From: Bacillota bacterium
Lineage (GTDB): Bacteria > Bacillota > Limnochordia > DTU087
Direction of reading: 5' to 3'
Assembly (NCBI GenBank): GCA_012839845.1
Contig: DUMM01000099.1
Coordinates: 1 to 36,014 of the forward strand
Length of the DNA stretch: 36,014 nucleotides
Shown here: positions 4,291 to 29,389 of the stretch, one piece after another
Position numbering within the stretch: position 1 is the first letter of the stretch
Layout of the letters: each line of letters opens with the position of its first letter
Made by a program: the position numbers and the translations under genes
The notes under the pieces: generated by a model
The model's input: the letters and a program-made list of their open reading frames with translations, nothing else
The model's database searches: none
What the model was told of the DNA's origin: nothing

Positions 4291-4791
4291 TCAGTCTATC
4301 TTTAGGTCTCCGTGTTTGGCGACATGGGCCGCCAGACCGCCGTCGGCCAAAAGCCGAATCATTACATCGGGCAGCGGCGGTGCCTGGAGTACTATATCCT
4401 GAGTCTTGTTATAGATCTTGCCGCTGCTCAAGTCAACCTCCAGTTCATCGCCGGCGCTGATCTTGTCAGTATCGCAGATCAAAACCGGCAGTCCTACATT
4501 AATGGCATTGCGGAAAAAGATCCTGGCAAATGACTTGGCCAAAACAGCACTGACACCGGCCATCTTGATAATAGTGGGAGCGTGCTCTCTGCTGGACCCC
4601 AGGCCGAAATTGTTTCCCGCCACGACAAAATCCCCGGGCTGCACCTTAGAGGCAAACTCAGGGTCGGCGTCCTCCAGCACATGCTTGGCCAGCTCCGGCA
4701 GGTTGGAACGGAGGTGAAAGAGCCTCCCCGGAGCAATATGGTCGGTAGAAATATTGTCCCCAAACTTCCAGGCTTTACCTTGCAATCGCAT
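4291..4791 (-). CDS. Aconitase-family dehydratase, small subunit (LeuD/HacB-like)
   Basis: Small swivel subunit of 166 residues, the usual LeuD length. It pairs with the large Fe-S subunit upstream to isomerise a 2- or 3-hydroxy tricarboxylate through dehydration and rehydration. Visible motifs are GDNISTDHIAPGR (11-23), the FGLGSSREHA substrate loop (62-71) and AKSFARIFFRNAINVGLPV. The loop after GR reads LFHLRSN; an Arg in this loop (here R28) is, as I recall, associated with homoaconitase (YLRT type) rather than isopropylmalate isomerase. With the adjacent homocitrate synthase this favours homoaconitase, but isopropylmalate or plain aconitase activity remains possible. The start overlaps the leuC-like stop by 17 bases, typical of coupled subunits. 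Confidence 0.88.
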   Translation of the reverse strand: MRLQGKAWKFGDNISTDHIAPGRLFHLRSNLPELAKHVLEDADPEFASKVQPGDFVVAGNNFGLGSSREHAPTIIKMAGVSAVLAKSFARIFFRNAINVGLPVLICDTDKISAGDELEVDLSSGKIYNKTQDIVLQAPPLPDVMIRLLADGGLAAHVAKHGDLKID

Positions 4792-6046
4792 TGTCCATTA
4801 CCTCCCTGGGATCAGTGATAACACCAGTCAGTGCGCTGGCGGCAGCCGCAGCGGGAGAGCCGAGGTAGATAAATCCTTTGGGATTGCCCAGCCTCCCCTG
4901 GAAATTCCGATTAGACGTATTCAGAGATACTTCGCCGTCGCCTAAGACGCCTTCATGCACTCCAACACAGGGTCCGCAGCCCGGAGCCAGGACTACAGCC
5001 CCGGCAGCCACCAAAGTCTCTATATAACCCAAGCGGATTGCCTCCAAGAAAATCCTGCGGGAGGCGGGGACCACGATGCACCGCACTCCTGAAGCTACCC
5101 TCTTGCCCTTGAGGATCGACGCCGCCACCGCCAGGTCCTCCAGACGGCCGTTGGTGCACGAACCGATGAACACCTGGTCCACTTTGGTGCCCGCCAGTTC
5201 CTTCACCGGATGCACGTTATCCACGGTATGGGGTGCCGCCAGCATAGGCTCCAGCTGGCTGACATCAACAGCAATCACCCGCTCGTAATCGGCGTCGGGG
5301 TCAGCTGACAGCGGACGGTACTCAGCTCCTCGGCCTTGAGATTCTAAATACTCTCGGGTCACTTCATCACTGGCAATTAAGCCCACCTTGGCGCCGGCCT
5401 CCACCGCCATATTGGCCAGTGTCAGCCTTTCGTGCATGGGCATAGCTGCGATAGTCTCGCCGGCAAACTCCAGCGCCTTGTAAGTGGCTCCGTCTGCGCC
5501 CAGCATGCCGATGAGGTGAAGAATCAAGTCCTTGGCACATACGCCGGGCGGCATCTTGCCGGTCACTTCGATCAGGAAGGTCTCAGGCACTCTAAACCAG
5601 GTTTTCCCTAAAGCTATGCCCATTGCCACGTCGGTAGAACCCATGCCGGTGGCAAAGGCGGCCAAAGCGCCCGCGGTACAGGTGTGGGAATCTGCCCCAA
5701 TGATTACCTTGCCGGGGGCGGCGTAATCCTCGGCAACCAGCTGATGGCACACTCCTTCGCCGACATCGGACAGACGGCAGCCGGTTTTTTGCGCGAATTC
5801 CCTCAGCAGTATATGATCGTTGGATAACTCCTTCCGGGGGCTGGGGGCCGCGTGATCAATGAACAGGATGGTGCTTTCCGGGCGGGCTGCCTTCTCCATC
5901 CCGATTTTCCGCAGCTGCTGCACCGCCAGGGGCCCGGTACCGTCTTGGGTGAGAGCTACATCCACTTCACAGACAATGATCTCGCCGGCGCGGACTTCCC
6001 GCCCTACCCGCTGGCTCAGAATCTTTTCAGCCAATGTCAATCCCAT
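4775..6046 (-). CDS. Aconitase-family dehydratase, large subunit (LeuC/HacA-like)
   Basis: Large catalytic subunit of 423 residues carrying the [4Fe-4S] cluster. Cluster ligands are C297 (GSCTNG) and C357/C360 (APGCGPC). Other family motifs are TQDGTGPLAVQ (33-43), DHAAPSP (64-70), GADSHTCTAGAL (118-129) and the final RNFQGRLG. The length and the bacterial/archaeal split-subunit layout match the COG0065 group that mixes isopropylmalate isomerases and homoaconitases. ATG at 6046 is preferred: GGAGG lies nine bases before it, whereas the in-frame ATG at 6055 abuts that site. It is separated from the upstream homocitrate synthase by about 190 bases with a strong hairpin, so it may be partly uncoupled from that gene. 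Confidence 0.9.
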   Translation of the reverse strand: MGLTLAEKILSQRVGREVRAGEIIVCEVDVALTQDGTGPLAVQQLRKIGMEKAARPESTILFIDHAAPSPRKELSNDHILLREFAQKTGCRLSDVGEGVCHQLVAEDYAAPGKVIIGADSHTCTAGALAAFATGMGSTDVAMGIALGKTWFRVPETFLIEVTGKMPPGVCAKDLILHLIGMLGADGATYKALEFAGETIAAMPMHERLTLANMAVEAGAKVGLIASDEVTREYLESQGRGAEYRPLSADPDADYERVIAVDVSQLEPMLAAPHTVDNVHPVKELAGTKVDQVFIGSCTNGRLEDLAVAASILKGKRVASGVRCIVVPASRRIFLEAIRLGYIETLVAAGAVVLAPGCGPCVGVHEGVLGDGEVSLNTSNRNFQGRLGNPKGFIYLGSPAAAAASALTGVITDPREVMDNAIAR

Positions 6047-6164
6047 TCTCGCCATCCTCCTGCCCTCTCTTGGTTTAGTTCCATCCGGGATGGGGAATGC
6101 CTTCCCGCCTCACCCCGTGTACCTTGTATTAACTACCGAATTGTACACAAATCCTCTAAACGCG

Positions 6165-6206
6165 GAAAATCGGCAGCGGACCTGACGAAGTCCGGTGCCG
6201 ATTTTC
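6165..6206 (-). terminator. Strong hairpin between nifV-like and leuC-like genes
   Basis: GAAAATCGGCA (6165-6175) pairs perfectly with TGCCGATTTTC (6196-6206). After one mismatch, 6177-6181 pair with 6190-6194, leaving an eight-base loop. The A-rich and T-rich ends make it a possible bidirectional intrinsic terminator. On the minus strand it sits downstream of the nifV-like stop (6236) and upstream of the leuC-like start. A TACAAT hexamer on the minus strand (6140-6145), just downstream of the hairpin, could be the -10 box of a separate leuCD promoter, though its -35 is poor. The hairpin may instead attenuate read-through. Confidence 0.6.
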
Positions 6207-6235
6207 ACCGTATGTCATCTGATGCTTCCCTCTGC

Positions 6236-7408
6236 TCAGACAGCATCTTTGCCCCGCTTCATTTCCTGCTTGAAATCCTCGTAGATGTAGACCAATTCCT
6301 TATCGAAGAGAGCCCGCTTGAGGGAAACAGCAGTCTCCCTGACTTTGGGAAGCAGCAGCTGGGCTTCCTCCCTAGTGAGACTAATGCCGTACTCCATGAA
6401 CTTGGCCATCAAGGCTTTGGTACCCGAGTGCTTCCCGATGACGATCTGCCGCTGCAAACCTACCTCTTCCGGTGCAAAGACCTCATAGGTGGAGGCGTCT
6501 TTCAGCACGCCGTCGGCATGGATCCCAGACTCATGGGCAAACATATTGGTGCCGACGATGGCCTTCCAGGCCGGCAGTTCTCGGCCGGAAGCCCGGGCCA
6601 CATATTCGCTGGCTTCCCGAAACATATCTGTCTTGAAATTGAGGTCGATCTTGGCTAAGTACTTCAGGGCCATCACCACTTCCTCGAGAGCAGCATTGCC
6701 TGCCCGCTCGCCCAGGCCGTTGATGGTCACCCCGACGAACTTGGCCCCTCCCCGGACGCCTGCTAAGGCATTGGCTGTAGCCATGCCGAAATCGTTGTGG
6801 GTATGCATCTCGATATCGAGACCGGTTGCTTCCCGCAGAATTCGCACGTGTTCGCAGATGGTGAAGGGCTCCATGATACCCACAGTATCACAGTAGCGCA
6901 GGCGGTCAGCTCCGGCATCCCGGGCTTCCTTCCCAAACTTGATCAGAAAGTCCATATCCGACCGGGAGGCATCTTCAGCATTGACCGAAACGTACAAATC
7001 ATGGCGCTTGGCGAAGGCCACCGCTTCGGTCATATGCTTCAGCACCCAATCCCGATCGGTCTGGAGTTTGTGCTTGATGTGGATGTCGGAGGTGGAGATG
7101 GATATCGCCACCGCGTCCACCCCGCACTCCAGGGAGGCTTCTAAGTCTTTAATCACGGCCCGGTTCCAAGCCATGATGCTGGCCCGCAAATTCGCCTTGA
7201 CGATGGCCCTAATGGCTTCCTGCTCATCGCCGCCCATGGCCGGAATCCCAGCTTCTATCTGGTGCACTCCCATTTCATCTAGAAGTTTGGCAATCCGCAC
7301 CTTTTCGTTGTTGGCAAAGACGACACCCGCTGTCTGCTCACCATCCCGCAGAGTGGTGTCCACAATCATCACAGGTGCATGATTCCGTGGATCCGTGAGC
7401 TTTGACAC
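6236..7408 (-). CDS. nifV: Homocitrate synthase, NifV-like
   Basis: Claisen-type synthase of 390 residues, with a DRE-TIM TIM barrel and no C-terminal LeuA regulatory domain. Active-site motifs are DTTLRDGEQTAG (17-28), H202-x-H204 in MHTHNDFG, and NGLGERAGN; GIHADGV and VGLQRQIVIGKHSGT follow. The segment STSDIHIKHKLQTDRDWVL resembles NifV more than isopropylmalate synthase. The expected reaction is acetyl-CoA plus 2-oxoglutarate giving homocitrate. No nif genes are in the window, so a role in nitrogenase cofactor is unproven. A homoaconitase-like pair lies downstream. Re-citrate synthase, a relative, is an alternative. The start is GTG with AGGGGG eight bases upstream. The 162-base gap to gatB holds only a weak promoter candidate. 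Confidence 0.85.
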   Translation of the reverse strand: MSKLTDPRNHAPVMIVDTTLRDGEQTAGVVFANNEKVRIAKLLDEMGVHQIEAGIPAMGGDEQEAIRAIVKANLRASIMAWNRAVIKDLEASLECGVDAVAISISTSDIHIKHKLQTDRDWVLKHMTEAVAFAKRHDLYVSVNAEDASRSDMDFLIKFGKEARDAGADRLRYCDTVGIMEPFTICEHVRILREATGLDIEMHTHNDFGMATANALAGVRGGAKFVGVTINGLGERAGNAALEEVVMALKYLAKIDLNFKTDMFREASEYVARASGRELPAWKAIVGTNMFAHESGIHADGVLKDASTYEVFAPEEVGLQRQIVIGKHSGTKALMAKFMEYGISLTREEAQLLLPKVRETAVSLKRALFDKELVYIYEDFKQEMKRGKDAV

Positions 7409-17201: not shown

Positions 17202-17966
17202 TCACAGCCGCACAGGGATCCCCGCCGCCTGCAGGTACTGCTTTACCTCCCGAATGGAATATGTGCGAAAATGGAAAAGGGAAGCGGCCAGTACCGCATC
17301 GACTTTGCCCGCTAAAAACGCGTCCCTAAAGTGTTCCAGGCGGCCGGCTCCTCCGGATGCGGTGACGGGAATGGGCACCTTTTCTGCCACCAGGCGGTTC
17401 AGATCGTTATCATATCCGTCCTGGGTGCCGTCGGCATCCATGCTGGTGAGGAGAATCTCTCCAGCTCCCAGAGAATACACCTCTGCGGCCCACCGGCCTA
17501 CCTCCCAACCCGTAGCCGTGGTGCCTCCCCGGGAATAGACCTCCCACCAGGTGCTGCCGTCGGCGTTTTCAGTTCTCTTGGCATCAATGGCGACAATGAT
17601 CCGCTCCCGGCCGAAAGCGCGAGCGGCTTGGGCTACCAGGTCAGGATTCTCCAAAGCCGCGGTATTGATGGAGACTTTGCTGGCTCCCGCTTCAAACATC
17701 GCTTCCATATCCTGCAGGGAGCTGATGCCGCCGCCTACAATCAGAGGAATACTGATGGCCCGGGCAGTGCGGCGAACGCTCTCTGACAGGGCCCGCCGCC
17801 CCTCCTGGGAAGCTGTAATATCCAGAAAGACGAGCTCATCGGCACCCTCTCCATCGTAAAAAGCTGCCTGCTCCACAGGATCACCGGCATCCCGGAAATC
17901 GACGAAATTCACACCTTTGACTACTCGGCCGTCCTTTACATCAAGACACGGGATTACTCTCTTCAT
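17202..17966 (-). CDS. hisF: Imidazole glycerol phosphate synthase, cyclase subunit
   Basis: HisF of 254 residues from ATG at 17966 (GGAG eight bases upstream), the family length. It adds ammonia to PRFAR and closes the imidazole ring, also releasing AICAR. The beta/alpha barrel keeps both catalytic Asp, in CLDVKDGR and AIDAKR. The barrel-gate residues matching T. maritima R5, E46, K99 and E167 are present ([24 protein letters not shown]). The usually conserved Asp of GADKVS, which contacts HisH, is Ser here (S96, codon 17679-17681). No hisH is in the operon. HisF alone works with free ammonia in known cases, so this enzyme may be ammonia-dependent (inference). Confidence 0.96.
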
Positions 17967-18026
17967 CGACCTATCTCCAGTATCCATAGCAGCATTCTCC
18001 CATCTATGCTCAAACCAGAGACACCG

Positions 18027-18773
18027 TCAACTTGCATGATCCGCCGCGGACCTGGCAGCCTCAATGGCTGCCTCCAGAGTGAAGCGGCCGCTGTAGAGCG
18101 CCTTACCGACAATTACCCCTATTATCCCCCGTCCAGCCAGCTTGGCGATGGCCCGGATATCCTCCAGGGCGGCAACTCCGCCGCTGGCGATAACCTTGGC
18201 TCCAGCGCCAGTCATCTTTTCCAATGCCTCGGTGTTCGGACCGGTCAGCATCCCGTCCCGGGCAATATCGGTAAAGATGATCTCCTGTACTCCGAGGTCA
18301 ACCATTCTCCTAGCCAAGTCCAAGGGATCCATTCCACTGCTTTCAACCCAACCCCGAACCGCCACCAGCCCATCCCGGGCATCGATCCCGACGATGATTC
18401 TTCCTGGATGCCGCCGACAGGCAGCTGCCACCAACCCAGGGTTTTCGCAGGCCGCAGTGCCGAGGATCACGTAGCTTGCTCCGGCATCTAGAACCATTTC
18501 AATAGTTTCCAGATCCCGAATACCGCCTCCCACCTCAACGGGCACCGAGACGGCTGCGGCAACAGCCCGGATAACATCCAAATTCCCAGGCCGGCCGGAA
18601 AAGGCTCCATCTAAGTCCACCACATGCAGCCTCTCCGCTCCCGCCTTGGCAAAACCCTCAGCTACCTTTACCGGCTCTCGAGAGTAGATGGTTTCCTGGT
18701 GGCTTTGACCCTGAATTAACCGCACGCAGCACCCCCGCCGCAGGTCAATGGCGGGAATCACCATGAAACTCAA
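18027..18773 (-). CDS. hisA: ProFAR isomerase
   Basis: HisA of 248 residues, a beta/alpha barrel performing the Amadori rearrangement of ProFAR to PRFAR. The two catalytic Asp are in PAIDLRRG and FTDIARDGM, and the phosphate-binding loops are EVGGGIRD and IASGGV. The TTG start at 18773 overlaps the hisB stop in a TTGA arrangement, with AGGAAG upstream; the next ATG is at 18764. The overlap shows that hisB and hisA are directly joined. In many relatives hisH lies between them, and here no space for it remains. Confidence 0.95.
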   Translation of the reverse strand: MSFMVIPAIDLRRGCCVRLIQGQSHQETIYSREPVKVAEGFAKAGAERLHVVDLDGAFSGRPGNLDVIRAVAAAVSVPVEVGGGIRDLETIEMVLDAGASYVILGTAACENPGLVAAACRRHPGRIIVGIDARDGLVAVRGWVESSGMDPLDLARRMVDLGVQEIIFTDIARDGMLTGPNTEALEKMTGAGAKVIASGGVAALEDIRAIAKLAGRGIIGVIVGKALYSGRFTLEAAIEAARSAADHAS

Positions 18774-19357
18774 CCCAATCTTCCTTTCGTAGACAGCTGA
18801 CCCTCCACCCTGGGGTCCAAGGCACAGGCCTGAGCTAGAGCTCTGGCTGCTGCCTTGAAGGCCGCCTCTACCAAGTGATGCATGTTTCCCCCAGCTATCT
18901 CCCGAATATGCAGGGTGATGCCGGCATTAAAGGCTAGAGACCTAAAAAACTCCTCGGCCAGCACAGCGGGAAAAGCACCCAGCATCTCACTGGTCAAATT
19001 CCAGGAAAAGACTGCGCAGGGCCTGCCGCTGATATCCACCGCAGCCATTACCAGCACTTCATCCATGGGGACAAAGGCGTTCCCAAAGCGGGCAATACCT
19101 GATTTGCTGCCCAGGGCTTGGGCAAAGGCCTGGCCCAGGACGATCCCCACATCTTCCACGGTGTGGTGGGCATCTACCTCCAAGTCCCCCCGGGCAAAGA
19201 CCTCAAGATCGAAGAAACCGTGCTTGGCGAAGGCAGTGAGCATGTGATCGAAGAAGCCGATTCCCGTCTCGATGGTGCTCTTTCCCTTGCCGTCTAAATC
19301 CAGCTTCACCCGGATATCTGTCTCTCCGGTGGTCCGGCTGACTTGCCCCATTCTCAT
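18770..19357 (-). CDS. hisB: Imidazoleglycerol-phosphate dehydratase
   Basis: HisB of 195 residues, the monofunctional IGP dehydratase without the phosphatase domain of enterobacterial HisB. The metal-binding His repeats are visible: FFDHML, EVDAHHTVEDVG (first half) and GGNMHHLVEAAFKA (second half), giving the manganese site. The ATG at 19357 has AGGAGG seven bases upstream. It starts 11 bases after the hisD stop and overlaps hisA by four bases. Confidence 0.97.
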   Translation of the reverse strand: MRMGQVSRTTGETDIRVKLDLDGKGKSTIETGIGFFDHMLTAFAKHGFFDLEVFARGDLEVDAHHTVEDVGIVLGQAFAQALGSKSGIARFGNAFVPMDEVLVMAAVDISGRPCAVFSWNLTSEMLGAFPAVLAEEFFRSLAFNAGITLHIREIAGGNMHHLVEAAFKAAARALAQACALDPRVEGQLSTKGRLG

Positions 19358-20751: not shown

Positions 20752-21411
20752 TCAATCCACAGGTTTTGCCAGCACTTCCCGCAGCCGCCGCACTAATCCC
20801 TGGATAGTCTGGTATTTCACCTTGCAGCTTACTCGGTTGGCAATCAACCGGGATGTTATCTGAGCTATTTCCGCAATTGGTATCAGCCCGTTCTCCACCA
20901 GGGTAGTACCGGTTTCGGTTATATCCACAATAGCATCGGCTAGCCCCACAATGGGCCCCAATTCTACAGAACCATTGAGGTGCACCACCTCCGCCTGGAT
21001 CCCCTGGCTGCTGAAAAACTCGGTGGTAATCCTCGGAAACTTGGTGGCAACCCGAGAGTTGAAATCCAAATCCTGAACATCCTTAATGCCGGAGGTCTCC
21101 GGCACAGCTACAATCAAGCGGCAGAAGCCAAACCCTAGATCCAGAAGCTCAGCCACATCCTTATGGCTTTCCAGGAGTATATCCTTCCCCACAACTCCCA
21201 AATCCGCAGCTCCGTACTCCACATATGTAGGCACATCCGCCGGTTTTGCCAGGAGAAACCTCCACTCGGTACCTGGGACAGGGATGATGAGTTTTCGGGA
21301 GGGCTCCCGCAGCTCGCTGCAGTCAATCCCGATCTGCTCCAGGAGATCTACTACCGGCTTTTGCAGCCGGCCCTTGGGCAGCGCAATGGTCAGGGGCGCT
21401 GCTTTATCCAC
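20752..21411 (-). CDS. hisG: ATP phosphoribosyltransferase, short catalytic subunit
   Basis: HisG of 219 residues, the short form that lacks the C-terminal ACT-like regulatory domain and therefore needs HisZ. It joins ATP and PRPP in the first committed step. Visible are LTIALPKGRLQ near the start, YGAADLGVVGKDIL, and the PRPP-binding loop DITETGTTLVENGL. The start is GTG at 21411 (AAAGGAGG eight bases upstream) or the preceding TTG at 21414. It overlaps the hisZ stop by eight bases, which fits a fixed HisZ-HisG stoichiometry. Confidence 0.95.
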   Translation of the reverse strand: MDKAAPLTIALPKGRLQKPVVDLLEQIGIDCSELREPSRKLIIPVPGTEWRFLLAKPADVPTYVEYGAADLGVVGKDILLESHKDVAELLDLGFGFCRLIVAVPETSGIKDVQDLDFNSRVATKFPRITTEFFSSQGIQAEVVHLNGSVELGPIVGLADAIVDITETGTTLVENGLIPIAEIAQITSRLIANRVSCKVKYQTIQGLVRRLREVLAKPVD

Positions 21412-22681
21412 CAAACCCCCCTCCTTTCAAAGCCGCGGGAAATCGCTCCAGCTCCTCTTCCCGCCAGCCCACTGCCTCCGTCCAAACCAGGAGCCTATCT
21501 TCTGTAACGGGCTTGATCACCCAGCGAAAGCCGTTGGCTGCGGCGTATCTGAGGCCCTTATCCTCCTCGAGATCATCTACGGCCAGTTCCACTGAAAACC
21601 CCTGCCCCCTCAGCCTTTCTGCCGTCTGCCAGGCTAGATGCGGCCTTTGAGCAAGGCCCAAACAGAGGATCCGCAAATTGGGCCCAGCACTCCAGGCTCC
21701 CTGCCGGGAGAGGACCAGCATGATCCGCTCAATTCCCAAGGCGAAACCGGTGGCCGGGCACCAGTATCCAAACTGCTGGATGAGGTTGTCGTAGCGACCC
21801 CCGGTGCCGATGGCAAAGCCCATATCCGCGGTATAAGCTTCCAGCACCATACCAGTGTAGTACTCAATATCCTTGATCATCCCTAGATCCACCTGCACCC
21901 AATCGGTGAGCCCAAAGGCCTCCAGGGCATCATATATTGCCGTTAGGTTGCTGATGGCCCGCTGGGATATGGGGTTTTTGGCCCGCTCTGCAGCGTTGTG
22001 GAGCACCTCCCGCCCGCCCCGCAGATGAGGCAGGCTGAGTAAGAGCTCCCGGTCATCTTGAGAGAGGTTGTACGCCGCCGTAAGCTCCTCTAGGGCCACA
22101 TAGTCCTTCTTCAACAGGGCTGTGCGCAGGTTCCGCCTCTGCTCAGCCGACAACCCCGAATTCTGCAAAATGCCGTCAAAGTAATCCACGTGCCCAATAT
22201 CCACCAGGAAGTTCTTGAGGCCTACAGCCTTTAGGGCTTCAACGGCTAAGGCAATGACCTCAGCATCGGCCAGAGGACTGCTGCTTCCCACCAGCTCCAC
22301 ACCCGATTGATAGAACTCCCTTCGCCTCCCGGCCTGGGGTTCGGCATACCGGAAGACATTGGCGTGGTAGCAGAGGCGAATTGGCTTAGCAGCACCCCGC
22401 AGCCGGGTGGCTACAACCCTGGCAATGGGAGTAGTCATGTCGGGCCGCAGTGCTAAGATGTCCCCTTCCCTTTCAAAAAAGCGGTAAAGATTCCTGGCCA
22501 ACCCAGCGGCATCTCCGGCGCTTACGGCATCGTAAAACTCCATAGTCGGAGTAACGATCTCCCTATAACCCCACCGCCAGAAAAGGTTCCGCAGGGTTTC
22601 CTCCACCCAGCGCTTCCGCTCTGCATCCCGGGGCAGAAAATCCTCGGTCCCCCGGGGTGTCTGGGTCATGGTATAAGTCAC
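21404..22681 (-). CDS. hisZ: ATP phosphoribosyltransferase regulatory subunit
   Basis: HisZ of 425 residues, a catalytically dead histidyl-tRNA synthetase relative that binds short HisG and carries histidine feedback. It begins TPRGTEDFLPRDAERKRW and has class II synthetase motif 2-like RPDMTTPIARVVATRL and RYAEPQAGRRREFYQSGVEL. HisZ rather than HisS is supported by the EDFLP start, the missing anticodon-binding domain and the overlap with hisG. GTG at 22681 has GGAGG seven bases upstream; an ATG lies four codons later. It starts 25 bases after guaA. Confidence 0.93.
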   Translation of the reverse strand: MTYTMTQTPRGTEDFLPRDAERKRWVEETLRNLFWRWGYREIVTPTMEFYDAVSAGDAAGLARNLYRFFEREGDILALRPDMTTPIARVVATRLRGAAKPIRLCYHANVFRYAEPQAGRRREFYQSGVELVGSSSPLADAEVIALAVEALKAVGLKNFLVDIGHVDYFDGILQNSGLSAEQRRNLRTALLKKDYVALEELTAAYNLSQDDRELLLSLPHLRGGREVLHNAAERAKNPISQRAISNLTAIYDALEAFGLTDWVQVDLGMIKDIEYYTGMVLEAYTADMGFAIGTGGRYDNLIQQFGYWCPATGFALGIERIMLVLSRQGAWSAGPNLRILCLGLAQRPHLAWQTAERLRGQGFSVELAVDDLEEDKGLRYAAANGFRWVIKPVTEDRLLVWTEAVGWREEELERFPAALKGGGFGG

Positions 22682-22706
22682 TGGTCCTCCTCCCTCCCGG
22701 CCGCTC

Positions 22707-24074
22707 TTACTCCCACTCAATGGTGGCCGGCGGTTTGGAACTAATGTCGTAGACTACCCGGGTGATCTCTTTGACTTCCCCCATAATCCGGCTGGAGATC
22801 TTCTCCAGAACGTGATAAGGCAGCTGAACCCAGCTTGCAGTCATACCGTCGACGCTGTTCACGGCCCTGATGGCCAGCACGTAGCCGTAAGTCCGCCGCT
22901 GATCCTGCACGCCGACGGCGCGGGTGTCGGTCAGCACGGCAAAATACTGCCAGATATCCCGCTCCAGGCCCGCCTTCTTGATCTCATCCCGCAGTATGTA
23001 ATCCGCATCTTGCAGAACAGCCACCTTTGCAGGGGTAACCTCCCCAATAACTCTCACCGCCAGACCGGGGCCTGGGAAGGGCTGCCGCCAGACCAGTTCA
23101 TCGGGTAGGCCCAGTATCTGCCCAACCTTTCGCACCTCGTCCTTAAAAAGCCAGCGCAGCGGCTCTAGAAGCCTAAAGTCCATCTTCTCCGGCAGACCTC
23201 CCACATTGTGGTGGGATTTCACCAAAGCCCCCTGACCTGCCCCGCTCTCTACCACATCCGGATACACCGTTCCCTGAACCAGGTAACGTACCTTCCCCAG
23301 TTTCGCCGCTTCTTCTTCGAAGACCCGGATAAACTCGCCTCCGATCCGCTTCCGCTTCTCCTCGGGATCGGTTACGCCCTTAACCTGAGCAAAGAATCGC
23401 TCCTTGGCATCTACAGCGATAAAGCTTTTCCCAAACCGCCGGCGGAAAATATCCGCCACCGTCTCCGCCTCGTACTTGCGCATAAAGCCGTGGTCGACAA
23501 AAATGCATGTCAGCTGGGAGCCAACGGCCTGGTGCACTAATGCTGCAGCAACAGCAGAATCAACTCCGCCGGAAAGTCCGCACACCACCAGTTCCGAACC
23601 CACTTCACTCCTGATCCTCTGGATGCTGGACTCTACAAATGCCTCCATGGTCCAGGTGGGCTCGCACCGGCAGACGCTGCCAACGAAATCCTCCAGCACC
23701 TCTTTACCGGAGGGTTCCGCCAAAGACTCTATCCCGCCCGGAAAGACAGTCACCAGTCCAGCGGCCCTTTGCTCCTCGGCTCGCTCAACCAGCCAGTCAA
23801 ATCCGGAGCCAACTGCCAGCACAGGTATCCCGGCTTCTAACAGCTTCCTGACGGCGCTGTACACTTCCTCCCGGCCTGCCAGATTCCCGTCCTGCTTGCC
23901 GGTCAGAATTACACCCCGGGCACCTTCCTCCAGCACCTCAGCCAGTGATGCTTGAATGGGAAATATTTCGCTGTACACCTGCAGCTTCCGCACTTCCCGG
24001 GCGGCAACATGGCTGCCGTAACCTCCCAAATCCATGACGATGATCCTATTTGCCATCAGGCTGTCCCGTTCCAC
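22707..24074 (-). CDS. guaA: GMP synthase with degenerate glutaminase domain
   Basis: XMP aminase of 455 residues, against about 510-525 for normal GuaA. The ATP pyrophosphatase half is intact: SGGVDS P-loop (168-173), IFVDHGFMRK, HHNVGGLPEKM, and the dimerisation half with RQPFPGPGLAVRVIGE and the C-terminus YDISSKPPATIEWE. The N-terminal class I amidotransferase domain is recognisable (IIVMDLGGYGSHVAAREVRK; GIPVLAVGSGFDWL) but broken. The nucleophilic Cys of GICYGM is G89, the region of the FHPE His and Glu reads FPGGIES, and about 70 residues are missing. The frame is open, so this is not a simple frameshift. The enzyme should need free ammonia or a separate glutaminase. GTG start at 24074 behind AGGAG. 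Confidence 0.95.
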   Translation of the reverse strand: MERDSLMANRIIVMDLGGYGSHVAAREVRKLQVYSEIFPIQASLAEVLEEGARGVILTGKQDGNLAGREEVYSAVRKLLEAGIPVLAVGSGFDWLVERAEEQRAAGLVTVFPGGIESLAEPSGKEVLEDFVGSVCRCEPTWTMEAFVESSIQRIRSEVGSELVVCGLSGGVDSAVAAALVHQAVGSQLTCIFVDHGFMRKYEAETVADIFRRRFGKSFIAVDAKERFFAQVKGVTDPEEKRKRIGGEFIRVFEEEAAKLGKVRYLVQGTVYPDVVESGAGQGALVKSHHNVGGLPEKMDFRLLEPLRWLFKDEVRKVGQILGLPDELVWRQPFPGPGLAVRVIGEVTPAKVAVLQDADYILRDEIKKAGLERDIWQYFAVLTDTRAVGVQDQRRTYGYVLAIRAVNSVDGMTASWVQLPYHVLEKISSRIMGEVKEITRVVYDISSKPPATIEWE

Positions 24075-24116: not shown

Positions 24117-24656
24117 TTACTTCTTATAGATCTCCGGCTTCAAAATGCCGATAAACGGCAGATTTCTGTACTTCTCTGCATAGTCTAAACCGTAGCCCAC
24201 CACGAATTCATCGGGAATCTGGAAACCGTTGTAGTCAGTAGCAATGGGCACAAGCCGTCGGGCCGGCTTATCCAGCAGGGTGGCGATCTTGAGGCTCGCC
24301 GGACGGCGGGCTGACAGGTTGTCCACCAAGTACTTCAGGGTCAAGCCCGAATCCACTATATCCTCCACGATCAGCACGTGGCGGTTGGCAATAGGGGCGT
24401 CTAGATCCTGCAGGATCCGCACTTCGCCTGAGCTCTTGGTGCTGGCACCATAGCTGGAAATAGCCATGAAGTCCATATCCACGGGGATGGTGATGTTCCT
24501 GGAGAGGTCGGCCATGAAGCACAGCGCTCCCTTAAGGATGCAGACCAGCACCAAATCCTTCCCGGCGTAATCCCGGGAGATCTCGGCTCCTAATTCCGAC
24601 ACCCTCTTCTGGATCTGCTCTTCTGTCAGTAGGACCCGATCTATATCCTCTAGCAT
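24117..24656 (-). CDS. hpt: Hypoxanthine(-guanine) phosphoribosyltransferase
   Basis: Purine salvage enzyme of 179 residues that makes IMP or GMP from the base and PRPP. The PRPP-binding motif is VLIVEDIVDSGLTL, with the flexible loop region SSYGASTKSSGEVR, the GALCFMADLSR segment before it, and VGYGLDYAEKYRNLPFIGIL near the end. ATG at 24656 has AGGAGG eight bases upstream; a GTG directly before it is possible. It lies 42 bases before guaA in the same direction, so salvage and GMP synthesis are probably co-expressed, followed by the histidine genes. Confidence 0.96.
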   Translation of the reverse strand: MLEDIDRVLLTEEQIQKRVSELGAEISRDYAGKDLVLVCILKGALCFMADLSRNITIPVDMDFMAISSYGASTKSSGEVRILQDLDAPIANRHVLIVEDIVDSGLTLKYLVDNLSARRPASLKIATLLDKPARRLVPIATDYNGFQIPDEFVVGYGLDYAEKYRNLPFIGILKPEIYKK

Positions 24657-24708
24657 CACTTTTGCCTCCTCATCAACTGTGTCAATTCCCTCTCCTGTCC
24701 TTCAGCTC

Positions 24709-28286: not shown

Positions 28287-29264
28287 ATGAAGGAGCCAAT
28301 TAGAATCGGAATTGTCGGCTACGGTAACCTGGGCCGGGGAGTAGAGCAGGCCGTCCGGCAGAACCCAGATCTTGAGCTGGCAGCCGTCTTTACCCGCAGG
28401 CCCCCGGATCAGATTCACAGCCAAGCCCAGGTCTTGCCGGTGGAAAAAAGCTGGGATTTTCGGGATAAGATCGATGTCATGGTCCTGTGCGGCAGCTCCG
28501 CCAACGATCTTCCCGAACAGGGACCGTTGTTTGCATCCCAGTTCAATACCGTGGACAGCTATGATCTCCACGCCCGCATTCCAGAGTATTTTGAGCGGAT
28601 AGATGCCGCTGCCAAAGAAGGCGGTAACCTCAGCCTAATTGCCGCCGGCTGGGATCCGGGTCTCTTCTCCTTGGCCAGGGTTCTTTTCAACTCCATCCTT
28701 CCTAAAGGAAAAACCTACACCTTCTGGGGCAAGGGCGTAAGCCAAGGTCACTCCGTGGCTGTCCGCCGACTGCCGGGCGTAAAGCAGGCAGTGCAGTATA
28801 CAGTGCCCGTCCCGGAGACCATCGAGCGAATTCGAAAAGGGGAGACCCCGGAGCTTACTGCCCGGGAACAGCATCAGCGGATATGCTACGTCGTTCCAGA
28901 ATCCGGTGCCGACCGGGCCGCCATAGAGACAGCCATTAAGACCATGCCCGGGTATTTTGCAGATTATGACACCACCGTCTACTTTATCACAGAGGAGGAA
29001 TTCGCAGCCTCCCACACCGGCATGCCCCACGGTGGATTCGTGATTACCACCGGCACTACCGGCGGAGGATACAGACAGCAGGCCGAACTGCGGTTGGAGC
29101 TGGCAAACAACCCTGAATTCACCGGCAGCGTTCTGGCGGCCTGTGCTCGGGCAGTCTACCGCCTGCGCCGGGAGGGAAAGACCGGTGCCTGCACCATGTT
29201 TGATCTTCCTGTAGGCTATCTCTCTCCCCAGTCCCCAGAGGAACTGCGGGCGAAGATGCTGTAG
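28287..29264 (+). CDS. ddh: meso-diaminopimelate D-dehydrogenase
   Basis: Ddh of 325 residues, which reductively aminates tetrahydrodipicolinate with ammonia and NADPH in one step to meso-DAP, precursor of lysine and of peptidoglycan cross-links. The N-terminal Rossmann fold has IRIGIVGYGNLGRGVE; AAGWDPGLFSLARVLF and FWGKGVSQGHSVAVRRLPGV are hallmark substrate-site stretches, and MPHGGFVITTG is also present. The gene stands alone, with GGAAG before its ATG and a hairpin downstream. It assimilates free ammonia directly, which is worth noting beside the ammonia-type GuaA and HisF. Confidence 0.95.
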   Translation: MKEPIRIGIVGYGNLGRGVEQAVRQNPDLELAAVFTRRPPDQIHSQAQVLPVEKSWDFRDKIDVMVLCGSSANDLPEQGPLFASQFNTVDSYDLHARIPEYFERIDAAAKEGGNLSLIAAGWDPGLFSLARVLFNSILPKGKTYTFWGKGVSQGHSVAVRRLPGVKQAVQYTVPVPETIERIRKGETPELTAREQHQRICYVVPESGADRAAIETAIKTMPGYFADYDTTVYFITEEEFAASHTGMPHGGFVITTGTTGGGYRQQAELRLELANNPEFTGSVLAACARAVYRLRREGKTGACTMFDLPVGYLSPQSPEELRAKML

Positions 29265-29389
29265 TGCGATGCAGACCCTGAACAGGGTGATGCAGCGTAG
29301 TGAAAAACTGAGGCTTTGCCCAATCAGGGTAGGACAGTGGATTCCGTCAGTTATTGGACTGTGCTGCAAAGACATAGTCTACACACGAA

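Follow-up and report, generated by a model that had tools for sequence, protein, structure and literature searches.

The window analysed here is a stretch of 36,014 nucleotides from contig DUMM01000099.1 of a Bacillota bacterium (GTDB class Limnochordia, DTU087), whose genome (2.06 Mb, 135 contigs, 100% complete, 0.22% contaminated) contains a single guaA. This gene, an open reading frame at 22707-24074 on the minus strand with a GTG start, encodes a GMP synthase (GuaA) of 455 residues. The histidine operon directly downstream of guaA has the order hisZ-G-D-B-A-F-IE, with hisH missing. The features considered here are:

22707..24074, minus strand: guaA, 455-residue GMP synthase with an inactivated and shortened glutaminase domain (NF000848, PF00958, PF00117)
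22710..23654, minus strand: ATP-pyrophosphatase and dimerisation core, residues 141-455 (TIGR00884, 478 bits; Foldseek 7sbc, TM 0.87)
23556..23573, minus strand: SGGVDS P-loop, residues 168-173 (alignment with 32 relatives)
23715..24050, minus strand: pseudo-glutaminase remnant, residues ~9-120 (TIGR00888, 44.5 bits; ordered fold; dN/dS)
23808..23810, minus strand: Gly89 codon replacing the nucleophilic Cys (alignment with 32 relatives and class-wide alignment)
23700..23744, minus strand: FPGGIESLAEPSGKE replacing the His/Glu HPE motif, residues 111-125 (both alignments)
24117..24659, minus strand: hpt, hypoxanthine phosphoribosyltransferase, upstream of guaA and a possible salvage route (TIGR01203, 228 bits)
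21404..22720, minus strand: hisZ, overlapping the end of guaA, start of the his operon (TIGR00443, 354 bits)
18770..19357, minus strand: hisB (PF00475, 217 bits)
18027..18773, minus strand: hisA, its start overlapping the hisB stop, with no hisH between them (TIGR00007, 263 bits)
17202..17987, minus strand: hisF without any hisH, D98 replaced by S and Q123 by E (TIGR00735, 351 bits)

By the sequence of its core, the protein belongs to the GMP synthase family. It scores 568 bits against NF000848 (GMP synthase; cut-off 400) and 143.9 bits over the full length (1-92) of PF00958, the GMP_synt_C dimerisation domain, and retains every invariant core column in an alignment with 32 relatives. The initial annotation, made from the DNA letters, had described a protein of 455 residues with an open frame, a P-loop at residue 168 and a fully conserved synthetase half, and the reading frame, alignment and profile score agree with it on each of these; the P-loop starts at residues 221-226 in intact relatives.

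What defines a glutamine-hydrolysing GMP synthase is missing from the sequence: its N-terminal class-I glutamine amidotransferase (GATase) domain has no Cys-His-Glu triad. TIGR00888 gives 44.5 bits (cut-off 172) over residues 11-97, and PF00117 gives 20.3 and 22.0 bits, below the cut-off of 22.8 for a class-I GATase; these sub-threshold matches cover only the first half of a class-I glutaminase. At the nucleophile motif GICYGMQ, the alignment with those 32 relatives shows AVGSGFD in the window protein, so the nucleophilic Cys is Gly89, the replacement originally proposed. The counterpart of FHPE is PGGIE, from which the catalytic His is missing, and the Glu present in the alignment sits outside any HPE motif; the altered FHPE segment seen earlier is thus real. 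About one third of the length of the glutaminase half and the second half of its fold are gone. The shortening was correctly recognized, but the ~70 residues first estimated is slightly high, as the stretch ahead of the P-loop is ~55 residues short and the protein leaves 64 of the 200 reference GATase columns unfilled. The description of the domain as inactivated and shortened therefore stands.

The remainder of the domain is predicted to fold. The AlphaFold model of the window protein (mean pLDDT 85.7) shows residues 9-120 as an ordered alternating strand-helix unit, with 10-residue pLDDT means of 68-91, and a Foldseek search with this model ranks GMP synthases first (best match 7sbc, TM 0.87); structure prediction, a check named by the initial annotation, thus gives an ordered remnant on a GMP synthase. 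A shorter relative is also predicted to fold. The dN/dS ratio is 0.10-0.39 for the remnant (0.19-0.33 in pairs with the window) versus 0.04-0.19 for the core, with synonymous sites saturated in several pairs and some pairs consisting of intact enzymes; these ratios indicate that the remnant is under purifying selection. R29 and P84 are found in 49 of 49 degenerate proteins, and A25 and E36 in 96%. In Plasmodium GMP synthase (GMPS), the C89A mutant no longer works with glutamine but remains active with ammonia, and the ATPPase on its own shows a kcat with ammonia that is lower by 5.9-fold (PMC4673825). A dead domain can therefore still help the synthetase, which is a reason for keeping one; by analogy, help of this type may have caused retention of the remnant in the window GuaA.

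Searched with PF00117, the window's own genome yields CTP synthase, a C26-type peptidase homologue and the GuaA remnant, and nothing else; GuaAa, HisH, CarA and TrpG are absent from its results. The CTP synthase, PyrG, has an intact triad (GICLGMH, FHPE), the catalytic motifs are preserved in PyrG and in GatA, and the C26-type homologue (PF07722/PF00117, G000:C99) has GICRGAQ and HPE motifs. A second guaA or stand-alone GuaAa, for which a genome search had been proposed, is not found in this 100%-complete genome, nor is any other stand-alone glutaminase subunit. The alternative originally offered to free ammonia, a partner glutaminase, is disfavoured, the only other class-I GATases being the intact CTP synthase and the C26-type homologue.

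GuaA is found in all 10 other genomes of the window's GTDB family, and its glutaminase domain is degenerate in eight; the other two genes have lost their N-terminal part to a contig end. Across the class Limnochordia, degenerate GuaA occurs in 40 of 54 good genomes, and in the class-wide alignment Cys, His, and Glu are all kept in 16 genomes. The degenerate forms differ in extent: only the Cys is altered in G029, G034, and G041 (to Gly) and in G080 (to His); the proteins of G030, G046, and G078 are almost full length but have no residue of the triad, and G058 has just the His; GuaA of G022 has 224 residues ahead of the P-loop, with the triad gone; G032 and the window's family have intermediate forms; and many other GuaAs of the class keep ~117-145 residues. 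A rapidly built tree of the core, many of its branches without support, requires at least nine changes between the intact and degenerate states, so loss has probably recurred. A 2023 review recognizes only two types of GMP synthase, two-domain and two-subunit (PMC10526850), and among such described enzymes a retained pseudo-domain is indeed unusual, as had been claimed; in this class, however, it is common, and gut records of Bacteroides and Subdoligranulum show it too. Outside the window's family, a full-length GuaA at L026:5998-7536 has Cys replaced by Gly (GIGYGMQ) with HPE kept, an early stage of loss. Four class relatives (G028, G033, G037, and G065; 87-93% complete) have no GuaA match whatsoever.

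Glutaminase partners of other pathways are missing as well. The pur operon of the window genome (L209, G000:C104:1-10000) reads purE-purL-purF-purM-purN-purD, with neither purS nor purQ; PurL scores 897 bits, and PurF keeps its Cys and reads ALNGS at the motif that is usually AHNGN. An assembly gap was considered as the cause of the missing HisH and PurQ and rejected for the window genome, since the his and pur operons are both contiguous and read without gaps. In the window's family HisF is found in 11 of 11 genomes and HisH and PurQ each in 0 of 11; because the HisH and HisF scans both missed the B. subtilis control genome, a single absence deserves less confidence than what was read from the operons. 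Two family members (L331 and L332) have pyrB-pyrC-carB-pyrK-pyrD-pyrF without carA, the names other than carB having been assigned by reading translations. In the window genome itself, family-by-family searches find neither CarB nor TrpE, so carbamoyl phosphate and tryptophan lie outside the argument there. In a more distant genome (that of L013), a carA upstream of carB (L333:4541-5581, minus strand) encodes a CarA with a dead glutaminase half (IPIIALTLAAQS, EHYT); it matches PF00988 with 56 bits and PF00117 not at all, a parallel to the GuaA remnant.

Among good genomes of the class, PurQ is present in 5 of 40 with degenerate GuaA versus 14 of 14 with intact GuaA (Fisher 3.6e-9), and among those with HisF, HisH is present in 6 of 27 versus 12 of 13 (3.5e-5); both tests ignore relatedness. 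Correction for relatedness leaves three well-supported independent contrasts, which on average and mostly point in the expected direction and are too few to be significant. Several class relatives with degenerate GuaA retain HisH or PurQ.

The sequence of HisF bears on whether HisH is truly lost. Where HisF meets HisH, Q123 of HisF recognizes the carboxylate of glutamine (PMC9052757); in the active state, D98 shifts and makes contact with N12 of HisH (PMC8115485). An alignment of 58 HisF sequences, 29 each from genomes with and without HisH, has Q123 in 26/29 versus 4/29 (6e-9) and an acidic residue 98 in 28/29 versus 10/29 (6e-7), p-values that overstate independence because the sequences are related. 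The window HisF has S98 and E123, so both glutamine-coupling residues are gone. Their change in genomes without HisH argues that HisH is truly absent rather than overlooked. In G060, G044, and G038 (L295, L297, and L304), HisF residue 123, and partly residue 98, is altered although HisH is present; G060 and G044 carry a second, normal HisF.

Compared with known systems, the window GuaA resembles the two-domain enzymes of E. coli (1GPM) and A. baumannii (7SBC) in its core, P-loop, dimerisation domain and the position of its N-terminal domain, but, unlike them, it has no triad and is ~55 residues short, with the latter half of the GATase fold gone. Like archaeal GuaAa + GuaAb, it has a synthetase without a fused active glutaminase, and isolated ATPPase subunits of two-subunit GMP synthases use ammonia in vitro (PMC10526850). 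It is, by sequence, not of the archaeal two-subunit type: the window genome has no separate glutaminase gene, and an ordered dead remnant of ~110 residues stays fused to the synthetase. Human CPS1 is an ammonia-using synthetase that keeps an inactive glutaminase-like domain (Cys to Ser; PMC4655335), as the window enzyme is predicted to be, although CPS1 belongs to another enzyme family, its domain is not cut to half and parallel pathway losses are not involved. The window GuaA would probably act much as CPS1 does, as a synthetase that depends on ammonia and carries a vestigial glutaminase. The same half-domain architecture is seen in GuaA of Bacteroides finegoldii and Subdoligranulum variabile from the gut (NZ_OY725961, OY725880; 429-435 residues), with the Cys missing from the nucleophile region; unlike the sole copy of the window genome, the short guaA of Subdoligranulum adjoins a full-length intact guaA. 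In that Subdoligranulum record (L336:4278-7293), the intact gene is followed in tandem by the 429-residue half-domain gene. A record labelled as a Bacteroides finegoldii plasmid (L337:3013-4320) carries the 435-residue short guaA, annotated as glutamine-hydrolyzing despite the missing nucleophilic Cys.

The favoured reading, to which we assign a probability of roughly four in five, is that the window guaA encodes an ammonia-dependent GMP synthase whose dead half-domain is kept as a scaffold, within a lineage-wide loss of triad glutaminases. The core would adenylate XMP, and amination would follow with NH3 from the medium or cytosol instead of glutamine. In the N-terminal class-I glutaminase the Cys-His-Glu triad is gone, as is the latter half of the fold; the ordered half-domain would persist because it packs on and supports the synthetase, and simple gene loss could not remove it. 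The lineage has given up its triad glutaminases for purine and histidine synthesis (PurL without PurS/PurQ; HisF without HisH) and, where CarB exists, also that for carbamoyl phosphate. The dead GuaA glutaminase together with the lost histidine, purine and, where present, carbamoyl phosphate partners suggests that free ammonia is fed directly into these pathways. Free-ammonia use by GuaA, a predicted activity already put forward in the initial annotation, gains good support from gene content, part of which is that the window genome has lost HisH and PurQ as well.

Known GMP synthases have a high Km for ammonia, 103 mM in E. coli and 174 mM in human (PMC10526850). Given this poor affinity, the ammonia-dependent reading presupposes either ample ammonia or a better Km. 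Ammonia is plentiful in biogas reactors. A relative of the same genus (DTU087), not the window's genome, comes from cattle-manure biogas reactors at 54 °C (PMC4736482). An ammonia-rich habitat would fit the lineage-wide loss of glutaminases and may be its cause.

The remnant could instead have a new job, as an ammonia intake port, an allosteric sensor or a docking site, rather than act as a passive scaffold. Its confident fold, the purifying selection on it, the retention of R29, P84, A25, E36, and D15 across 49 remnant sequences of widely differing lengths, and the example of human CPS1, for which an alternative ammonia path has been proposed alongside a kept inactive glutaminase domain (PMC4655335), point that way. 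The conserved positions are, however, conserved in intact enzymes too, so nothing specifically new is seen in them, and the remnant varies freely in length and in its C-terminal part from one family to the next; a new function is therefore unlikely. Far less probable is a glutaminase acting in trans, such as the C26-type homologue or the PyrG domain, that supplies ammonia to GuaA, HisF, and PurL. The C26-type protein does have the motifs given above, but proteins of similar size and match range are also found in relatives that have every partner glutaminase, and none is listed for the family members G003 and G005; the PyrG glutaminase is fused to its own synthetase, and HisF is without its glutamine-coupling residues.

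The window genome is a draft in 135 contigs, which would leave room for a sequencing error, an assembly artefact or a decaying pseudogene, but the frame is open, core dN/dS is ~0.07 and the degenerate domain is found with open frames in dozens of genomes, so the trait is neither chance nor error; error and pseudogene were rejected on this ground, and an explanation of this type has almost no probability.

Beyond the ammonia-dependent reading of the window GuaA, it seems somewhat favoured that the anaerobic class Limnochordia has repeatedly dropped triad glutaminases, with synthesis of GMP, FGAM, imidazole-glycerol-phosphate and, in some members, carbamoyl phosphate running on free ammonia; decaying pseudo-glutaminase domains of GMP synthase and, in one lineage, of CarA would mark stages of this loss. 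The textbook nitrogen donor for GMP, FGAM, histidine, and carbamoyl phosphate synthesis is glutamine. In the open-access literature, no published description of a bacterial pseudo-glutaminase GMPS or of en-bloc loss of HisH, PurQ, and CarA was found. Within the class the loss comes in natural grades: some members have an intact triad, others have only the Cys changed to Gly, and others are left with half a domain. Such a series makes it possible to test why glutaminases are kept, what roles a fused domain has beyond hydrolysis and how genomes are shaped by the availability of ammonia. The label "glutamine-hydrolyzing" on proteins of this kind points to misannotation, and genome-based metabolic models are predicted to contain false pathway gaps at HisH, PurQ, and CarA.

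Elsewhere in the window, an open frame of 246 residues on the minus strand (28635-29375) has zero Pfam matches, and genes for a homocitrate synthase-like protein and the large and putative small subunits of a homoaconitase-like enzyme lie in a row at 4291-7408, also on the minus strand.
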